Below are positions 3,414 through 34,143 of a stretch of 34,211 nucleotides of DNA, in pieces. The notes beneath the pieces are model-generated. The model had not been told where the DNA came from. It worked only from the letters and a program-made list of their open reading frames with translations, and did no database searches. This DNA is from Candidatus Gracilibacteria bacterium CG12_big_fil_rev_8_21_14_0_65_38_15 (GTDB taxonomy: Bacteria; Patescibacteriota; Gracilibacteria; BD1-5; UBA2023): contig PCUR01000001.1 in NCBI GenBank assembly GCA_002771035.1, positions 1 to 34,211 on the forward strand, written 5' to 3'. Position 1 is the stretch's first letter; each line of letters opens with the position of its first letter. The translations under genes and the position numbers were made by a program.

Positions 3414-4490
3414 TTAAAAAGTAACTAAATCCCTCTCCACTTCTTTTGAAACAAAAACTTTCTTTTCTTTCACAGGCTCTGACCTTTGTATTTGATGAAG
3501 TTTCAAGTACTGCGAAACATCTTTATAAATCACACTTGCTAAGTGTTTTGCAAACTCTACAGGCACGGCATTTCCGATCATCTTGTAGCCATCAGCGATA
3601 CTTTTATACTTAAACAAGAAATCATCAGGGAAAGTTTGTATTCTAGCACATTCACGAACAGAGAGTCTTCTGTATAAATCTTCTTTTCCAGGGACGAAAA
3701 TTCTTTTATTCTGTTCGACAAATTGCATTTTTGGAGCTTGTGGGTGGAGTGGAGCATGACGACCTCCTGCCTGAATAGTAAAACTTGGTTCATCCCAGCT
3801 TCTTACACGGTTTCTTGACATGTAAATAGTAGAAAATCCACCATTCATATATTCATGATTTGAGCATTGAAGATCACAAATATCATTTGCATAGTTTTTG
3901 TCCTTTGCAGGTTTTGCGAGTCTCAGATCCCAGATTGCATCTTTTATTGTTGGTCTTGGTACAATTTCTTTCGGAGGAATAAACATTTTCCCTATTTTTT
4001 TATGATACCCTACGATGATAACCCTTTGTCTATCTTGTGGAACGCCATAATTATTCGCATTCAAAAGAAAATAGGAAACATTATAATTCAAAGACTTAAA
4101 TTCATTTAAGATATTTTGAAAAGCTTCCTCGTGTTTTGGGAGCAAGATACCAGAAACATTTTCTGCCAAGAAAAAGAGAGGCTCTTTTTCTTTTAAAATT
4201 CTAATATACTCAAAAAAAAGTTGTCCTCTTTTATCATTTATTCCCCTTCCTGCTCATGCTTCGCTCCAGCTTTGACACGGAGGACCTCCGATAATCCCCA
4301 TACATTCTGGCACATCAGATGTAGGAACATTTACAATACTCCTTTTGTCGAGATGAGTATGGGGGAAATTATGTTCAAAAGTTTCCCAAATTGTGCTATC
4401 GTATTCATTTGCCCAAATAGTCTCAAAACCGGCTTTATGAAAACCAAGATCAAGACCACCGGCACCTGTAAATAGTGATATTATTTTCAT
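3414..4490 (-). CDS. DNA (cytosine-5) methyltransferase, M.HaeIII type (predicted GGCC), 358 aa
   Basis: C5-cytosine methyltransferase with motif [12 protein letters not shown] (7-17), motif [10 protein letters not shown] with catalytic Cys72, motif VI AENV (109-112), motif VIII QDRQRV (152-157), and GNAVPV near the C-terminus. From memory it resembles M.HaeIII along its whole length, including the target-recognition part ([23 protein letters not shown]), so GGCC is the predicted site. An in-frame UGA at 4254-4256 encodes Gly79 in SWSEAGAGRG, just after the catalytic loop; the standard code would end the protein at 78 residues. It starts 2 bases after the restriction gene stop, so the two are almost certainly co-translated. 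Confidence 0.95.
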
Positions 4491-4492
4491 AA

Positions 4493-5479
4493 TTAATCTT
4501 TGCTAATATGTAAAGTATTTTTGAATAACTTTTTTGGAGATTTCAAAAGATTTATATCAAATTTTAGAGATGATTCTATTCTTGAACTTGCATTGTGTAT
4601 CCTAAAAGACAGAGTCCAATCATTATTCATTGTTATTATGACAGTTGTATTACTATTTTCTTTAAAAGAAATATCAATTATTTCTGTTGGCAAAGGAACT
4701 TTTGGTGTTTTATATTTTGGCTCAATTTTATCAAAAGGTAAATTCAAAGTTCCATTTATATTATATGCTTGTATCTCTACTGTATTTTTACTTTTTATCA
4801 CCTTGTAAAAGTCTTTGTTTCATATTAAATATGAAACAAGATTTGAGGGAATGTTATCATTATTTTCATTAAGGTTTCTTAGTTCTTTAATGAATGCTTC
4901 TAAAATTGGAAGATATACTGTAGTATGATAGTCTCCTAATTCACTCCATTTTTTTATCGCTTTACTCTCTTTTCTTAATTTTTCTAAACTTTGAAAAATA
5001 GGAGTAATTGTTTCGAAATATTCTTTTGAAACTTTTACACCTAACCATTTTTCACCGAAATCTATTAAATGTGATAAACGAGAATGTTTTACAGCATTAT
5101 GATTATTTTTAGCTGAAACACCAATTTCCCATTTTTGTAATAATCTAATAGCGAGTACATCTCTAACATCACCAGATTTTCCATGATCATCAGACAATAT
5201 CTCAAGTTGAAGAATATCTTTTATTCCAACATCATTTGATAATTTCGGTTCAATATCCATGAGAAAATTAACCGCAAAGCTAGCAGTAAGTAAATAATCA
5301 CTTTGTTCTGTTTTGCTTGTATTTTCAAAACATCCTTGAGCAATATGAAATGAAGAATTTTTAATCACTTCAATATTTGTTTTATCTTTCAATTTTTCTT
5401 CAAATTGAGTAAGTAAAGCATATTCAAAAGCTTTACCAGTAGTCATTTGTTTAGAATTTGTAGTAACCATATTAATCAT
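4493..5479 (-). CDS. HaeIII-family type II restriction endonuclease, 328 aa
   Basis: The cognate restriction enzyme of the methyltransferase next to it. Motifs that fit the HaeIII endonuclease family as I remember it are GKAFEYALL (15-23), GDVRD (103-107) and [20 protein letters not shown] (117-136), which could carry the metal-binding D...ExxxxK set. DFGEKW follows at 140-145. UGA at 4820-4822 is Gly220; the continuation adds about 108 residues and ends at TAA 4493-4495. The start could be Met1 or Met4. The family assignment is from recalled motifs and is supported by the HaeIII-like methyltransferase partner. No control (C) protein gene is visible in the locus. Confidence 0.78.
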
Positions 5480-6065: not shown

Positions 6066-8651
6066 TTACTTTCTGAGCTCAATTCCTTCTCCTTCCAATT
6101 TCTTGATTATTTTCTCTTGAATAGCAAGTGCCTCCTCGTCGGTAATAGTTTTCGTGAGATCTTGAATAAGGAACGAGAATGAGATGGACTTCTTCCCTTC
6201 TCCGATTTTTACGCTGTCACGGAATTCATCTACCACCGAGAAGTTTGAGAGGAGCGGACTTACACTGGCAATCTTCGCGATAACTGTACTCACAGGAGTT
6301 GTTTCAGAAAATACGAAGTTGAGTTCACGGGTGATTCCTGGGAATTTTCCGATTTCAGCAAACGTATGACTTGCAGTTGCAAAATAATGAGAGAGTTTCT
6401 GATAATCCACTTCAAAAAGAAGAACATTTGCATTTGAGAGACCGAAAGACTCAGCAACACCGGGATGAAGAGAACCAAAACTTATAATCGTTTCATTTTC
6501 TATAACATATCGTCCGGATTTATTCGGATGAAAAATCCCCCGGTCTGCGACCACCCCCTTTGTCAAGGGGGCAATAACACCTTGTTCTACGCTGAATCCC
6601 ATTCCTGGAAGAATAGCACGGAGAAAACCGTCGAGAACAGTTCGAAGTGTTTTTATATCAGAACCCACTAGAACCCCAGTCAATGACTTTTTCTCGGTGA
6701 ACTTATTCTCTCCGAGGCGCTCGAAAATTTTTCCGATTTCGAAGAAGGCGAAATCTTTTTGTTGTTTGAGATTCTCGGCAGTCGCTTCCAAAAGATTCGG
6801 AACCATAGAACGCCGCATCATCGTGTATTCTACATTGAATGCATTTTGAATATGCACAGCATTGCTATCGTCCGCATATCCGACGAGTGCATCTTTGTTC
6901 TGGTTAGAAAAAGAGTAATTATACGTTTCAAAGAATCTCTCTGCGGAAAAATACGCATTGATACTATTTCGAAGTTCGATAGATGTATTCTTTTCAGCGA
7001 TGGAAAATGGTCCGGTAATCGGAGTATTTGGAACTTGTTCGTACCCATTGATTCGCCCGATTTCTTCAACCAAATCCTCTTTGATAGAAATATCCTTCGT
7101 AACTCGCCAACTCGGCACCTTCACAGAGAAACTCTGGAAAAACTCGTCCTTCGAGCTTAAATCTCCGCTTCCTCATTCATCGTACTGACTTCGTACGACT
7201 CATTCCGGTTCTCGATTTGCACTCGAATTACTTCCTTTTTGCACAGTTTCTAAGTTTGAGAAAGATACTTCAAATCCGAGTCGTGTCAGAATATCCTCTG
7301 CTCGTTCTTTTGATATCTTGAGTCCGAGTTTCTTCTCGACAAAAGCAAGATCAGTTGTTATAGAGATATCCCGAACCTTCGTGGTATCGAGGTAAGAAAA
7401 AGCTCCGGTACATGTTCCGTTCTTTCCAAGAAATTTCAATAGATCAAATACTCGAGGCAATGCGCGTCTCGCAAGGGTCGGATCGAGCGATTTCTCGAAA
7501 CGCATCGAACTATCGGTTCGTATCGCGAGTCGCTGGGACGTGAGACGGATGGAAACCGGGTCAAAACACGCCGCTTCAAAGTACACGTTTTTTGTCGTTT
7601 CACTCACAGCCGAGCTCATTCCTCCGATAACTCCCGCAATAGCGAGAACTTTCTCGCCATCAGCGATAACAACATCTTTGGAAGTAAGCGTATATTCCTT
7701 GGAATCGAGAGCAATAATAATTTCACCATCTCGTGCCTGACGAACTGTCACATCTCCCACTACCTTATCCGCATCAAAAGCGTGCATCGGTTGTCCAAGT
7801 TCGGTCATAATAAAGTTCGTAATATCCACGAGGTCGTATTTCGGAGCGATTCCCGATTTTCTAAGCATTTGGTCGATTCCGAGCGGAGAAATCCCTGCTT
7901 GGATATTTTCAACGGAAATGAGTTCATACGAGAGAACATTCGGAGACTCGATCTGAACGGAAAGTTTTCCGGAAATTGTCGGAAGTTTCCCATTATACGG
8001 CGTAAATGGAAGTGAAAATATCGCACCAAATTCGCGAGCATTTCCCTCGGCACTGAACAAGTCTGGACGATTGGTGATGAATTTATTGTCGATTTCAAAA
8101 ACAGTATCTTTCAAAGGAAAAGAATAGTTCGCTGTTCCGTTTCCCGGAATAGCCACTTCGAGAGCATAGAAAGGAGTTCCAAGTTTAGATTCTAAGAGTT
8201 CTTCGGAAAAATGTCTTTCAAGCTGCATGATACCATGAGCTCGTTCCTCCTGGAGTCCAAGTTCATCCTCACTACAGATCATCCCTTCACTCACTTCTCC
8301 GCGAATCTTGGAAGATTTGATTTCGAAATCCTGTTCCGCTCCGAGTTTCGCACCAACAAGTGCAACTGCGACGTATTTCGCGGTTCGGACATTTTCCGCT
8401 CCGCAGACGATACCCAGAGCTCCAAGCAGACCACAATCGAGTTCTACAAGGTTCAGGTGGTCACTATCCGGGTGAGGTCGAGTAGATATGACTTTCGCGA
8501 TTACCACTTTATCTTCGAGTCCTATTTTCTCGATACCGTCGATTTCGGCCGTATGAATAGAATACAAATGAGCTAAAGGTTTTGCTCCTTGTTCAGAAAG
8601 AAGTGGGGAAATATTTGTATATTGGGATATCCAAGAAAGAGGGATTTTCAT
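6066..8651 (-). CDS. pheT: Phenylalanine-tRNA ligase beta subunit, 861 aa
   Basis: Beta chain of the (alpha-beta)2 PheRS. It has the N-terminal tRNA-binding fold (HPDSDHLNLVELDCG), the B3/B4 region with GQPMHAFDADKV and AIAGVIGG, the B5 region ending VPSWRVTKDISIKEDLVEEIGRI, and a C-terminal anticodon-binding-like domain (ELNFVF). The usual length is near 800. In the B5 domain, 49 residues separate GFEV from PSWR where Escherichia coli has about 11. The extra roughly 38 residues are encoded by a dispersed palindromic repeat. Both UGA-Gly codons of the gene (7173-7175, 7200-7202) lie in that insert; the other 859 residues use none. pheS is separate at 20481-21503. Confidence 0.96.
7128..7253 (-). 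repeat. Dispersed palindromic repeat, copy A, inserted in frame in pheT
   Basis: About 125 bases of the pheT reading frame resemble 32533-32664 (minus) and 25843-25925 (plus). The core (7161-7211) holds the hairpin TCGTAC-gaagtca-GTACGA. Copy C has CTGTAC/GTACAG at the same place, a compensated change. The peptide includes PEGVVRS, matching PEGAVRS in the same frame of copy C. Similarity is moderate (three quarters or so by eye), so the copies are old or fast-changing. It recalls Rickettsia palindromic elements, which also insert in frame in genes, but no sequence link is claimed. Confidence 0.75.
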
Positions 8652-8741: not shown

Positions 8742-11117
8742 TTAAGGCACTGAGTAGATTCCTCCACGGGAATAAAGTATTTTTTTATCGGGAGAAGTTA
8801 TTGATGGGAAAATAATATCACAGCTTCGTATCTGTGCGACGAAATCGGATGAATACGCACATGGACAACTCACACATTGCACGCTTCATTCTATCATTCC
8901 CGATGTTTTTATCTTGTCTGTGAGACAGAGATTATTTATAATAGTTTCATTAGAATTATATTCATTTACGACGGGGCATCCTTTATTGGAAGCCGGACCA
9001 AATACATCTGGACAAACATCTTGTATATTTCCAGTAGTATCATAGTCAAGTATTCAATCTTTATCCCTATCAAGATTTGGAATAATTATTACAGATAATT
9101 GAGCATAGGCAATATTCCCAGATGTATCACGTACTATGAATGACACAGGATAAACTCCTTCTTGCATAAAAGTATGCAGTGGATCTTTCAGTGTCGCATT
9201 TCCACCATCTCAGAAATTCCACTCATAACTATAGTTTCCATCTCATCCTGCTGTGGTAGAAAAAAATGGCATAGGAACACCTATTGTTCCATAAAGAGTA
9301 CTGGAAGAGGTTGTGAGCGGATTATCGGTTTTATTGGAAGGATTTGATGTAGTAGTGCCACCTGTATTTATGAGAGTATTATTATAATTTTGAACAAAAA
9401 CTTCTTGATAAACGGTAGTATTGAGATTATTTACATCCGTGATAATAAGTTTTACCGTCCATAAACCAGTTGATCAGAGATTATAATTATTTAAACAATT
9501 TCCATTTGCCAATTTCTGTTCACCCGTAATGCTATTGATAAATGTCCAATTATAGGTCAGAGGAGGTATAAGAGTTTCATTTGCATAGCCACCAAAATCA
9601 TAGATAGTTTGTGTATTATCTGGAAAAACAGTAACATTATCAGTAGGAGAACAATTTTGTTTTTCTGTATCAAATATCTTGATGATTCCTTGAATAGAAT
9701 CACTTGGAATACCGATTTGTGTAGAAATTCCATTAGCTTGTACAAAAACCTCTTGATACGCAGTAGAACTATGGCCAGTTGCATCAGAAGTAACCAGTTT
9801 TACACTCCATAAACCTGCAGATACCAGATCGAAGTTATCAAGATAACTCCCTGTTGCAAATTTCTGTTCACCAGTTACAGTATTGGTAAATGTCCAATTA
9901 TAGGTCAGAGGAGCTGAGAGAGTTCCTGTTGCATATCCTCCAAAATCATAGATTGTTTCTGTATTATCTGGAAAGGTGGTAATGTTGGGATTTTTAGAAG
10001 AAGATGTTTTATCTTTATCAAAAATCTTGATAATAGAAGCAAATGGATCATTGGAATTGTCGGGATTAGTAATCGGTGGTAGAGGATTATTATCTTTCAC
10101 AAAAACCTCTTGATACGCAGTAGAACTATGGCCAGTTGTATCAGAAGTAACCAGTTTTACACTCCATAAACCTGCAGATACCAGATCGAAATTATCGAGA
10201 CAACTTCCTGTTGCGGTTATCTGCTCATTAGTATTTACATTGGTAAATGTCCAATTATATGTAGCAGGAAGCGTCACACTTCCTGCTACATATCCTCCAA
10301 AATCATAAGTTGTTGCAGTGCTGTCTTGAAAAGTTGTAACTGCCTGAGATTCAGAACAATTCTTCTTATTTTTATCGAAAATCTTGATAATAGAACCGAA
10401 ATCCGCAGGCTCATGAGATTCTTTTACACTACACATATTGATGGCATAAATTTTTGAAGCCATTACAACAAATTCTTTTCTGGTAATATATTCATCTGGA
10501 AATATCTTTCCATCTTTATCTATAAAAATAAGTCCTGTCTGTACTGCTTTTTGTGCATAACCATACCAATACATATCAACATCCTGCATGATTACTTTTT
10601 TCATATAAGAACTATTGTTTTGAGTCTCATCCCAAAGTCCCGATTGACGCAAAAGTACAGCCGCAGCCTCTATTCTCGTAACATTATTTGCCGGACAAAA
10701 CGGTACTTCAGAAAAAGTCTTATCATCCTGACACTGGGTTTTTCCTGTGGCATCGAGGACATATCATCGGGCAATTTCTTTTTCCTTCGCATAGGAAATA
10801 CAGTAAAAATACTGATTTTTTTTCAGCACATCAACAAAAGGATTTGTATTATAATGAATAATATCTTCCACACTCGGAGTAATACATTTCTGACAACTTA
10901 CCCCTACAACTGTTCCAGCGAATTCATCACGAGGGAGGAGTCCGTTCGGATGAAACAAATGATTGGAATTATCGCTGATAATTCCAGCATTATACATATA
11001 TTTAAGATCTGTATAATATAAATCCTCTATTGAAACATCCGTAAAAGGAAGTTCCGACGCAGCCATGGAAAGAGACGGAAAAAAGAGAAAAAAGAAGAGA
11101 AAAAGTTTTTTAAACAT
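8742..11117 (-). CDS. Secreted S-layer-like protein with SLH domains and PKD-type repeats, 791 aa
   Basis: The start is the ATG at 11115-11117, giving a signal peptide MFKKLFLFFFLFFPSLSMAA. About three SLH-type segments follow (FTDVSIEDLYY..., a segment with NVTRIEAAAVLLRQ, and DVDMYWYGYAQKAVQTG). Then come three consecutive repeats of about 115 residues, each with IIKIFD, YDFGGY, YNWTF and LWSVKL. Next is a PKD domain (YEWNFGDGG) and a thrombospondin-type calcium-binding stretch (DRDKDGILDYD), ending in a Cys-rich tail. At least six UGA codons are Gly, among them FGDGG. SLH domains usually bind wall polysaccharide, so it is probably exposed on the cell surface. Copies of the repeat are nearly identical at DNA level, so the number may vary between strains. 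It ends at TAA 8742-8744. Confidence 0.85.
9742..9840 (-). repeat. Internal repeat of the surface-protein gene, copy 2
   Basis: Ninety-nine bases that differ from 10099-10197 at only three positions. They encode the end of one PKD-like unit (FDLVSAGLWSVKLVTSD and the following YQEVFV). Such high identity inside a coding region points to recent duplication or gene conversion. The third unit (around 9380-9480) is more diverged. Confidence 0.9.
10099..10197 (-). repeat. Internal repeat of the surface-protein gene, copy 1
   Basis: Nearly identical partner of 9742-9840 (three differences in 99 bases), in direct orientation and the same reading frame. Spacing of the two copies is 357 bases, or 119 codons, which sets the length of the protein repeat unit. 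Confidence 0.9.
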
Positions 11118-11190
11118 ATCGGAGCAATGGGAAGAAAATGTACCGTTTCCTGTATTATAATACAAAAGAGTTTAATAAACAAACAAAAAA

Positions 11191-25788: not shown

Positions 25789-25842
25789 ATGTTCGTTATT
25801 TTAGGTAAATCAAGATTCTCCGAAAATATGAAAGAACGATAA

Positions 25843-25925
25843 TATTCGTGCGAAAACTGCGTACCGGAGTGAGCTGTACGAAGTAGTACAGTGAACGAGG
25901 CACGTAAAGTTTAAACACGAAGATT
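25843..25925 (+). repeat. Dispersed palindromic repeat, copy C, abutting galU
   Basis: Same family as 7128-7253 and 32533-32664, in the opposite orientation. The core ACCGGAGTGAG is followed by CTGTAC-gaagta-GTACAG, then TGAACGAGG. In the frame matching copy A it encodes PEGAVRSS. It stops a few bases before the galU stop codon (25930-25932) and fills most of the gap after the M23/SLH gene. Confidence 0.7.
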
Positions 25926-25929
25926 GAAG

Positions 25930-26811
25930 TTATTTCATATTTTCCACGCGTGTTTTCATGAAGGAGAGAAGCTGAGGTCCTAGATCTTCTCGATCAAGCG
26001 CATAATCGATAGTCGCTTTGAGAAATCCGAATTTATCCCCGGTATCGTACCGATCTCCTTCGAGTTCCAGACCGTAAATATCTCTATCAGATACCATTGC
26101 GGCGAAAGCATCAGCGAGACGGAGTTCTCCATCTTTACTCGCAGTTCCACGAGAATGTTCGATATAATCGAAAACTTCTGGGGTAATAATGTATTTTCCG
26201 ATAACTCCGAGTCTGGAAGTAGTCTCTGTCGCTTTTGGTTTTTCGAGGAATTTATCTACCAAATGAATACGGTGTTCCGAAGAGCTGGATTCGACAATAC
26301 CATAAGATGATACTCTTTTATCAGATACCTTTTCCAGAGCAATAATAGGAGTCTGTTTACGGGAAAATGCTTCGATGAGCTGAGTTGCCCCTCATTTTTC
26401 CCCTTTTATAAGGTCGTCTCCGAAGAGCACGAGACAAGGTTCATTTCCGATAAACGGTCGAGCTCGAAGAATTGCATCTCCATCCCCTCGTGGGATTGGT
26501 TGTCGAACATAGGCAATGCGTGCAAGATTTGGAATATTCTCAACTGCTGCGAGAAGATCATGTTTTTTCTTCTCAACGAGCGTATGTTCCAATTCAAACG
26601 AAGTATCGAAATGATCTTCGATCGAGTGTTTTCCTCGTCCAGTAACGATAACGATATCGGTAATACCGGCTGCAACTGCTTCTTCTACGAGGTACTGGAG
26701 AACTGGTTTATCTACAATCGGAAGCATTTCCTTCGGCATAGCTTTAGTTGCTGGGAGAAAACGAGTTCCATACCCAGCTGCTGCGATAATACATTTACGA
26801 ATCTGTTGCAT
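25930..26811 (-). CDS. galU: UTP-glucose-1-phosphate uridylyltransferase, 293 aa
   Basis: Makes UDP-glucose from UTP and glucose-1-phosphate for surface glycans. The nucleotidyltransferase motif is [22 protein letters not shown], here split only for length: [11 protein letters not shown] then [42 protein letters not shown] and [14 protein letters not shown] follow as in GalU. UGA at 26392-26394 is Gly in [13 protein letters not shown]. The length is typical. The stop TAA at 25930-25932 is next to repeat copy C. Confidence 0.95.
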
Positions 26812-32510: not shown

Positions 32511-32639
32511 ATGATTCTTTTTCAAATCGAAATTACACTTTTCAGGAAGTCTCTGAAAAACTCGATCTTTGTATTCAAAATTCCGCTTCCTCATTCGTCG
32601 TACTACTTTGTACGCCTTATTCCGGTTCTCATTTTTCAT
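32505..32639 (-). CDS. Small basic ORF inside repeat copy B, 44 aa
   Basis: MKNENRNKAYKVVRRMRKRN is followed by FEYKDRVFQRL and ends KKNHK, stop TAG 32505-32507. It has a very basic composition. Almost the whole ORF is copy B of the dispersed palindromic repeat. Copy A also reads ENRNESYEV in the matching frame, so the reading frame may be part of the element. Translation is not established. Confidence 0.4.
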   Translation of the reverse strand: MKNENRNKAYKVVRRMRKRNFEYKDRVFQRLPEKCNFDLKKNHK

Positions 32640-32664
32640 ACAAATTTCTTCGTTTTTGAGAAAC
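32533..32664 (-). repeat. Dispersed palindromic repeat, copy B
   Basis: It resembles copy A over about 125 bases, with core 32581-32628. Its hairpin reads GCGTAC-aaagta-GTACGA, one pair weaker than A and C. It sits directly after the THUMP methyltransferase stop codon (32673-32675). Confidence 0.75.
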
Positions 32665-32672
32665 TTCTTTTT

Positions 32673-33782
32673 TTATTGGAACTTTTTCGAGTAAAAATAA
32701 CAGAGCTCGTTTCCATTATAGAGTTTGCGATTTTTCCAAGTATTCGCCCTAGTGTATTTTCCGAAATCGTAGGAAGTGATGATTCCTCCGAAGAGAGAAG
32801 TATTTTTCGTGAATACGATAGAAATATCTTTGTACAGTAAATCCAAATCGTAATCCTGAAGACGGATTCCGTATGGAGGATTCGACACGAGAGCTCCAGA
32901 AATATATTCGGAAACGTATTCTTTGAAATCCTTTTCTGAAAAATTGACTGTATCGGAAACCCCTGCCCGTTTGGCATTGTCCCGAGCAATTCGCACCGCT
33001 TCTGGATCAGTATCGCTTCCAGTTATGGTGTATTTTCTATCAGTCATTATTTTCGCTTTCGCACTTTCTTTCGCTTGCTTGAAATAGTTCGAATCGTACC
33101 AAGGAAAATATTCTCCTGCGAAACTTCGCGCCATTCCCGGAGCGATATTTCGAGCAATCATAGCAGCCTCGATGGCAATAGTTCCGGAACCACAGAATGG
33201 ATCCAAGAAAGGTTCTTTGTAACGCCATCCGGAAAGCATAACAAGCGCTGCGGCGAGCGTTTCTTTAATCGGCGCTTCGAGTGCTTCGGTTCGATATCCG
33301 CGTTTATGAAGCGGTTCTCCAGAAGTGTCGAGGAGGAGGAGAAGTGTATTTTCTCGGATGAGCGCAAAGATATGAATCCCCGTAACTTTATCATCCTCTC
33401 GGAGGATACTTTCCCGGTCTCCGGTAATCTTCGTGACGATTGCTTTTTTGATGGTTTTTTGAATCGCAGGAATACTATCTAAATCAGATTTGACTGATAC
33501 GGCATCAACGATAATTGGAGCATCCTTGGGAATGTATTTCCGCCAATCAATCGCACCGATTGCCTCAAAAAGCTCGTCGAAAGTCCGAGTCCGCTTCTCG
33601 GCGAGAACGAAATAAACACGGTTTCCCGTACGGATCCAAACATTGAGTTCCGCCATAAGATTATCCGGTCCCGAACAGAGGATTCCTCGGTCAGAGACAA
33701 CAAGGTCGGTTCCGCCGATTTTCTCAATCTCTTTTTTTAGGACTGATTCGACTCCGGGGGTACAAGTGATGAAGAATTGCAT
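32673..33782 (-). CDS. THUMP-domain class I RNA methyltransferase (RlmL/YpsC type), 369 aa
   Basis: Modifies guanosine in rRNA in relatives such as RlmL. The N-terminal THUMP region (about 1-150; MQFFITCTPGVESVLKKEIE) is followed by a SAM-dependent domain with DPFCGSGTIAIEAA, GSDTDPEAVRIARDNAKRAG and the catalytic SNPPYGIRL (N-P-P-Y). The start is the ATG at 33780-33782, which removes a 19-residue hydrophobic N-terminal extension not normal for the family. No UGA codon. The stop is TAA 32673-32675, next to repeat copy B. Confidence 0.9.
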   Translation of the reverse strand: MQFFITCTPGVESVLKKEIEKIGGTDLVVSDRGILCSGPDNLMAELNVWIRTGNRVYFVLAEKRTRTFDELFEAIGAIDWRKYIPKDAPIIVDAVSVKSDLDSIPAIQKTIKKAIVTKITGDRESILREDDKVTGIHIFALIRENTLLLLLDTSGEPLHKRGYRTEALEAPIKETLAAALVMLSGWRYKEPFLDPFCGSGTIAIEAAMIARNIAPGMARSFAGEYFPWYDSNYFKQAKESAKAKIMTDRKYTITGSDTDPEAVRIARDNAKRAGVSDTVNFSEKDFKEYVSEYISGALVSNPPYGIRLQDYDLDLLYKDISIVFTKNTSLFGGIITSYDFGKYTRANTWKNRKLYNGNELCYFYSKKFQ

Positions 33783-33819
33783 GGAAAAATGTAGAGAAAT
33801 AGGAATTATATTTATTAGT

Positions 33820-34143
33820 TTATTTCTTATAGTTATCAAATGTATTACTTGATGGTAATGGTTGCCAACTTCTTACTACTTCTTCACAAATAGGAGTTCC
33901 AGCAACAGAATCATGACAATTTTTACTACAGTAAACCTAATTATTATAGGCATCTGATTCTTTACTTACAGCCCAGGCTTTACAACCTTCATAGGTTGTA
34001 AAGATTTGTCAGTATCTAATGTTTGAATCTTTGGTTCATCCATCATAATATGAACCTTGCCATGTTTCCGTATTTCAGTCAGAACAACCAGATAACAAAA
34101 CAAGTCAACAAGTAATAATAAAGACTAAAGGAGTTTTCCTCAC
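33820..34143 (-). pseudogene. Lipoprotein gene interrupted by an in-frame TAG
   Basis: From a GTG at 34141-34143 it reads VRKTPLVFIITCGLVLLSGC, a lipoprotein signal with lipobox LSGC. SDGNTETWQGSYYDGGTKDS and FTTYEGCKAWAVSKESDAYN follow. A TAG then stops it at 33937-33939. The same frame goes on for 38 codons (VYCSKNCHDSVAGTPICEEV...) to TAA 33820-33822. The spread of cysteines on both sides suggests a single ancestral protein. Several UGA codons are Gly. Its first codons lie in the terminal inverted repeat, where the frame is also open further upstream. It could be a pseudogene, or a read error at one base (CAG to TAG). Confidence 0.6.

Follow-up and report, generated by a model that had tools for sequence, protein, structure and literature searches.

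The pheT gene of the Gracilibacteria genome studied here is interrupted, in frame, by one member of a dispersed family of palindromic repeats of about 130 bp. Using a covariance model trained on 45 copies, we counted 68 copies in this 1.01-Mb genome and 237 across seven congeneric genomes, the six congeners contributing 32, 10, 24, 61, 30 and 12. The family is very probably a non-autonomous, hairpin-forming mobile element of the MITE type which has multiplied in a lineage that reads UGA as glycine.

The window, that is, the whole 34,211-nt stretch of DNA that was analyzed, contains three copies. Copy A (7125–7256, minus strand; cmsearch 130.3 bits) lies within pheT (6066–8651, minus strand; 861 residues under code 25); its conserved core occupies approximately 7137–7241, with arms GAAACTGTG/CCAGAGTTTC, and on the pheT strand the insert folds with a predicted energy of -42.7 kcal/mol. 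Copy B (25816–25946, plus strand; 119.4 bits) belongs to a second subfamily and is located at the 3' end of a galU-like gene (25930–26811, minus strand), the last few codons of which come from the element; in the ortholog at locus L159 the stop codon stands immediately ahead of the element. Copy C (32543–32673, minus strand; 132.1 bits) adjoins the stop codon of a methyltransferase gene (32673–33839, minus strand), at -2. The cmsearch E-values of the three range from 1e-24 to 1e-27, for sequences which are among or near the training copies of the model, and blastn, which is independent of the model, also unites them. With the pheT insert as query it found 42 places in the genome (33 hits with the second subfamily), and because of these places and the E-values the similarity of the three loci, which align well, is judged to be far above chance. 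The repeats reported in the preliminary description at 25.9 and 32.6 kb are thus genuine, and its insert at 7128–7253 is real within the slightly different boundaries set by the covariance model. The compensated change CTGTAC/GTACAG, which had been assigned to copy C, also exists; it sits in the 25.9-kb copy, and agreement with that assignment depends on how the copies are labelled. A search of the window against Rfam matched no family near the elements.

Other features of the window include a perfect 59-nt inverted repeat at both contig ends (1–59 and 34124–34182), probably a repeated mobile element where the assembly broke. A DNA cytosine methyltransferase-like ORF is followed by an ORF for a candidate restriction partner (3414–5479), and three tandem repeats of approximately 300–350 bp (9384–10388) lie within a long surface-protein-like ORF (8742–11165).

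Copy A has no counterpart in the pheT genes of the six congeners. Their matches stop at residue 465 to 469 and restart at 506 or 507, and the empty site reads FSGDAFSV, FSGNSFIAKV, FTGENFSVKV and similar; the insert is also missing from solved bacterial PheT structures (best alignment). It is thus not a universal part of the gene and, given these empty sites and the dispersed family, the original description of a palindromic repeat placed in frame in pheT holds. The insert corresponds approximately to residues 466–506, in a loop of the B5 domain, with a net gain of about 39 codons. There are exactly two TGA codons in pheT (7202–7200 and 7175–7173, minus strand), and both fall inside the insert, as was first claimed, each as part of an AAUGA within the conserved GA core. 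The peptide predicted across the insert, for example SNSSANREPEGVVR, has glycine at UGA. AlphaFold2 models the insert as a disordered loop, with pLDDT below 50 at residues 469–502, between strands 461–464 and 507–511, and with high confidence around it.

For the seven congeneric genomes sequence was analyzed as stretches around the matches. At the level of the taxonomic family 16 of 27 genomes gave matches, with a maximum of 122 copies in one 2.4-Mb genome; in the remainder of the order matches were sporadic, few and weak. When 286 further genomes were drawn evenly from the phylum and searched with strict filters, no match reached E 1e-9. Among the genomes searched the element was seen only within the order of the source genome. 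The nearest neighbor of a copy lies in the same genome in 48 of 157 cases, compared to 37 expected; as this clustering by genome is weak, much of the family is old. In the source genome two inverted copies 0.65 kb apart (L007, 725–853 and 1486–1614) are 98% identical, one of them being in frame in an rlmL-like gene, which suggests recent movement (a local hop) or gene conversion. Variants of about 150–170 nt also occur (L029, 96–248; L030, 1408–1557; L036, 1498–1667; L062, 1471–1620; L190, 985–1135; L160, 3702–3856), and some longer variants carry an additional inner hairpin, for example AGCTCCCC...GTGGG.

Double compensatory changes were observed in 16 of the 23 predicted base pairs, and this covariation supports the hairpin fold. 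The core follows the pattern CCG-[GA]-[GU]-[GA]-NNC-GUAC-loop-GUAC-GNN-[GA]-[AC]-[GA]-GG. In 104 of the 157 copies matching this pattern, the dinucleotides enclosed by the GA motifs show covariation (GT/AC 50, AT/AT 19, GC/GC 15). The GA motifs presumably form tandem sheared pairs. The outer arms vary among copies yet stay complementary for 11 nt beyond the core, after which pairing ends abruptly. The plus strand, which bears the GA core, folds better than its complement (-40 versus -32 kcal/mol as RNA, and better with DNA parameters too). On one strand the element forms a long imperfect hairpin, with tandem G-A mismatches flanking the covarying GU/AC pairs at its core.

At least 27 copies, distributed over the seven genomes, lie in frame within conserved proteins as judged by domain or ortholog homology. 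The spanning ORFs with Pfam domains include an AddA-like helicase-nuclease, UvrA, PcrA/UvrD, RecG, a DinG-like protein, RadA (two), MiaB, RimO-like (three), RlmD-like (three) and RlmL-like proteins, Dus (two), KsgA, RlmE, a metallo-beta-lactamase-fold protein, a VWA protein, GatB, AspRS, a methyltransferase and a copper P-type ATPase. In the gene for the last (L185, 195–3809) there are both a sense and an antisense copy, each in frame. Excluded from the count were L016 (murG-like) and L172 (pth), where the element is at the N-terminus, and L139, L115, L177 and L125, for which clear homology did not extend to both flanks. We retained L058 (metallo-beta-lactamase fold), despite a domain match confined to the part upstream of the insert. 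As with pheT, orthologs from congeners mostly align across the junction and define empty sites for most of the other in-gene copies. At three sites two species both carry an insert, and inserts thus persist. Between the species the insert and host protein agree at 57 versus 87–91%, 43 versus 60–89%, and 91 versus 92–94%; in the first two cases the insert has diverged more quickly than the protein that carries it.

The supported in-gene copies are biased in orientation and frame: 24 of 27 are in the sense orientation, and sense frame 0 accounts for 19. Testing against the shares of open frames gave p 1e-9 for the frame bias; for the strand bias, p is 3e-4 (shared sites merged). Their length modulo 3 likewise differs from that of other copies (p 2e-4). 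Of all copies, 49% have sense frame 0, the most hydrophilic frame, open when read with code 25, but 2% when read with code 11; the difference arises from the UGA within the GA core. Within the inserts 70 of 1193 codons are in-frame UGA, compared to 39 of 7508 in the flanks (p 2e-34). UGA has been described as a glycine codon in BD1-5/Gracilibacteria (PMC4032931), and in Gracilibacteria pheT 91 of 101 resolvable UGA columns align with a majority glycine; a tRNA-Gly(UCA) was not found in the sequence stretches examined, which represent part of the genome. Since sense frame 0 nearly always meets the UGA of the GA core, insertions in this frame should be tolerated only where UGA specifies glycine. 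The earlier claim that the insert is readable only because of this reassignment is borne out for pheT and for the 25 of 27 supported copies with at least one in-frame UGA; it fails for two rimO-like inserts which have none, so that dependence on UGA is the rule and not absolute.

We suggest that a minority of insertions landed in genes, and that the survivors are those in frame, mostly with the sense orientation and the hydrophilic reading frame (SQKRSNLSENREPEG-TVR...), purifying selection having produced the frame bias. Such inserts would presumably be translated as disordered loops of about 40 residues. Were the ribosomes instead to skip the element, or were it excised from the mRNA, frame would be irrelevant. 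Bypassed mobile hairpins exist in yeast mitochondria, and a strong hairpin within the coding sequence of essential proteins might invite such a mechanism. All 27 homology-supported copies are nevertheless open in frame, partly as a result of detection through spanning ORFs, which out-of-frame in-gene copies could escape, and neither the bias toward the hydrophilic frame nor the fitting length classes would be expected from bypass. A non-exhaustive search for genes split by an out-of-frame copy revealed none; the candidates inspected look like neighboring genes and not halves of one. We therefore consider bypass or RNA removal highly improbable.

The intergenic copies show a different regularity. 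They are mostly antisense to the upstream gene, with its TAA or TAG stop codon within 4 nt of the right end of the element; of 77 elements in tandem gene pairs, 56 have the antisense orientation. Among 65 upstream stops facing the right end, pre-selected as lying no more than 40 nt from the boundary, 62 are found at -4 to +3 nt, and left ends display no comparable precision. These placement counts are approximate since the gene calls were greedy ORFs made for the analysis. TAA/TAG is enriched at the right end of both intergenic and in-gene copies, the intergenic set being confounded by selection for stop codons. As the right ends of in-gene copies too are enriched (15 of 27, compared to 6 expected), a preference for TAA/TAG as DNA target is likely, with selection adding to the preference.

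Placement directly after stop codons, antisense to the gene, would also suit a functional RNA element whose hairpin is a selected 3'-end structure, either a terminator or an mRNA stabilizer, with the in-gene copies as rare by-products, and several gene ends do bear a copy in two or more species. However, the strand that folds better and bears the GA core differs from that of the upstream gene's transcript, the subfamilies present at the same site differ, and many related genomes possess no copies or nearly none. On this evidence a selected RNA function appears unlikely. The subfamily present at a given gene end can vary from species to species, and some of the sites lacking a full copy retain the terminal 15–20 nt of the element. 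At a gene end coding for ...VMVLAH* or ...VMVLVH* (L122, L152, L044 and L170) a single stop codon is followed by different subfamilies in four species, either through recurrent insertion or through replacement of the arms.

We return to the mobile element as the preferred explanation. Insertion would place one defined end beside TAA or TAG, and most surviving copies would be those immediately after the stop codon of a gene and antisense to it. Mobility would be provided in trans by an enzyme, which may recognize the element as single-stranded DNA. No direct-repeat diagonal was present over 157 copies, as a fixed direct repeat would give, nor was there a TA peak at both ends indicative of TA duplication. 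The empty site in miaB fits a target-site duplication, with GAAATTTCT on both sides. Such a duplication was also considered as an origin for the pairing of the outer arms, but over all copies the correlation is only inverted and not direct; the arms may stem from the target or may coevolve.

Because one strand folds better, one end probably has a target and no duplication was seen, the element resembles those which transpose as single-stranded DNA. A narrower form of the preferred explanation would be single-stranded DNA transposition like that of IS200/IS605 or REP/RAYT elements: an HUH enzyme would recognize the hairpin and insert it 3' of TAA/TAG without target duplication. The strand-specific fold, the one defined end beside TAR in both intergenic and in-gene copies, and the absence of a fixed direct repeat agree with this. 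Yet a search restricted to the Y1_Tnp family found no Y1 transposase in five of the seven congeneric genomes, carriers of 10–61 copies, including the one with 61, and only one weak, distant copy in the source genome. An IS200/IS605 partner was therefore rejected as a general explanation, and we put this narrower form forward tentatively, as somewhat doubtful.

The closest parallel is provided by the Rickettsia palindromic elements (RPE; also WPE of Wolbachia), which are palindromes of 105–146 bp with many copies, both intergenic and in frame within unrelated conserved proteins (PMC2229807, PMC10969869). The Gracilibacteria family resembles them as a dispersed palindrome of about 130 bp, within the 100–150 bp or so expected, with 68 copies in the source genome, and in its in-frame insertion into unrelated conserved proteins (27 copies with domain or ortholog support). 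Unlike RPE it comes from a different phylum, its favored frame crosses a conserved UGA read as glycine, its intergenic copies lie against stop codons in a single orientation, and it has a tandem GA core. By analogy it is best read as working like RPE, without being classed among them, the likeness being one of behavior. ERIC and YPAL of enterobacteria are palindromic repeats capable of in-frame gene fusion (cited in PMC2229807) and are similar by description, but involve no recoded stop. MITEs such as Correia and RUP, and REP/RAYT systems, are likewise small, non-autonomous, hairpin-forming and multicopy; unlike them the Gracilibacteria element lacks a TA or other fixed duplication, and the Y1 enzyme is missing from five of the seven genomes. 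REPs occur mostly downstream of coding regions (PMC3733652), but the present element is much longer and abuts the stop codon exactly. Neither for Gracilibacteria nor for any recoded genome did a limited literature search turn up an account of elements of this kind. The class abutting stop codons, the tandem-GA core and the scale of the family are additions to the preliminary description.

That description had also proposed that recoding lets the genome tolerate such elements. The contrast between the two codes in openness of the favored frame and the lack of the family in the 286 other genomes of the phylum support this, short of proving causality. It is quite possible, if less than probable, that the protein-coding lifestyle of the element depended on stop-codon reassignment: the core would need GA-GA motifs which contain UGA, so that the favored frame could open only once UGA meant glycine, and the insertion enzyme would set one end beside TAA or TAG, the two remaining stops. 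Gene callers employing code 11 will split element-bearing genes, and annotations should be read with this in mind. The family adds to the Rickettsia elements a second, comparable case from uncultured Gracilibacteria, and offers approximately 25 natural insertion experiments in conserved enzymes. It links reassignment of the genetic code to tolerance of mobile DNA within genes: once one of the stop codons is lost, ribosomes can translate across a parasitic hairpin in essential proteins, and whether recoding favors such elements becomes testable.
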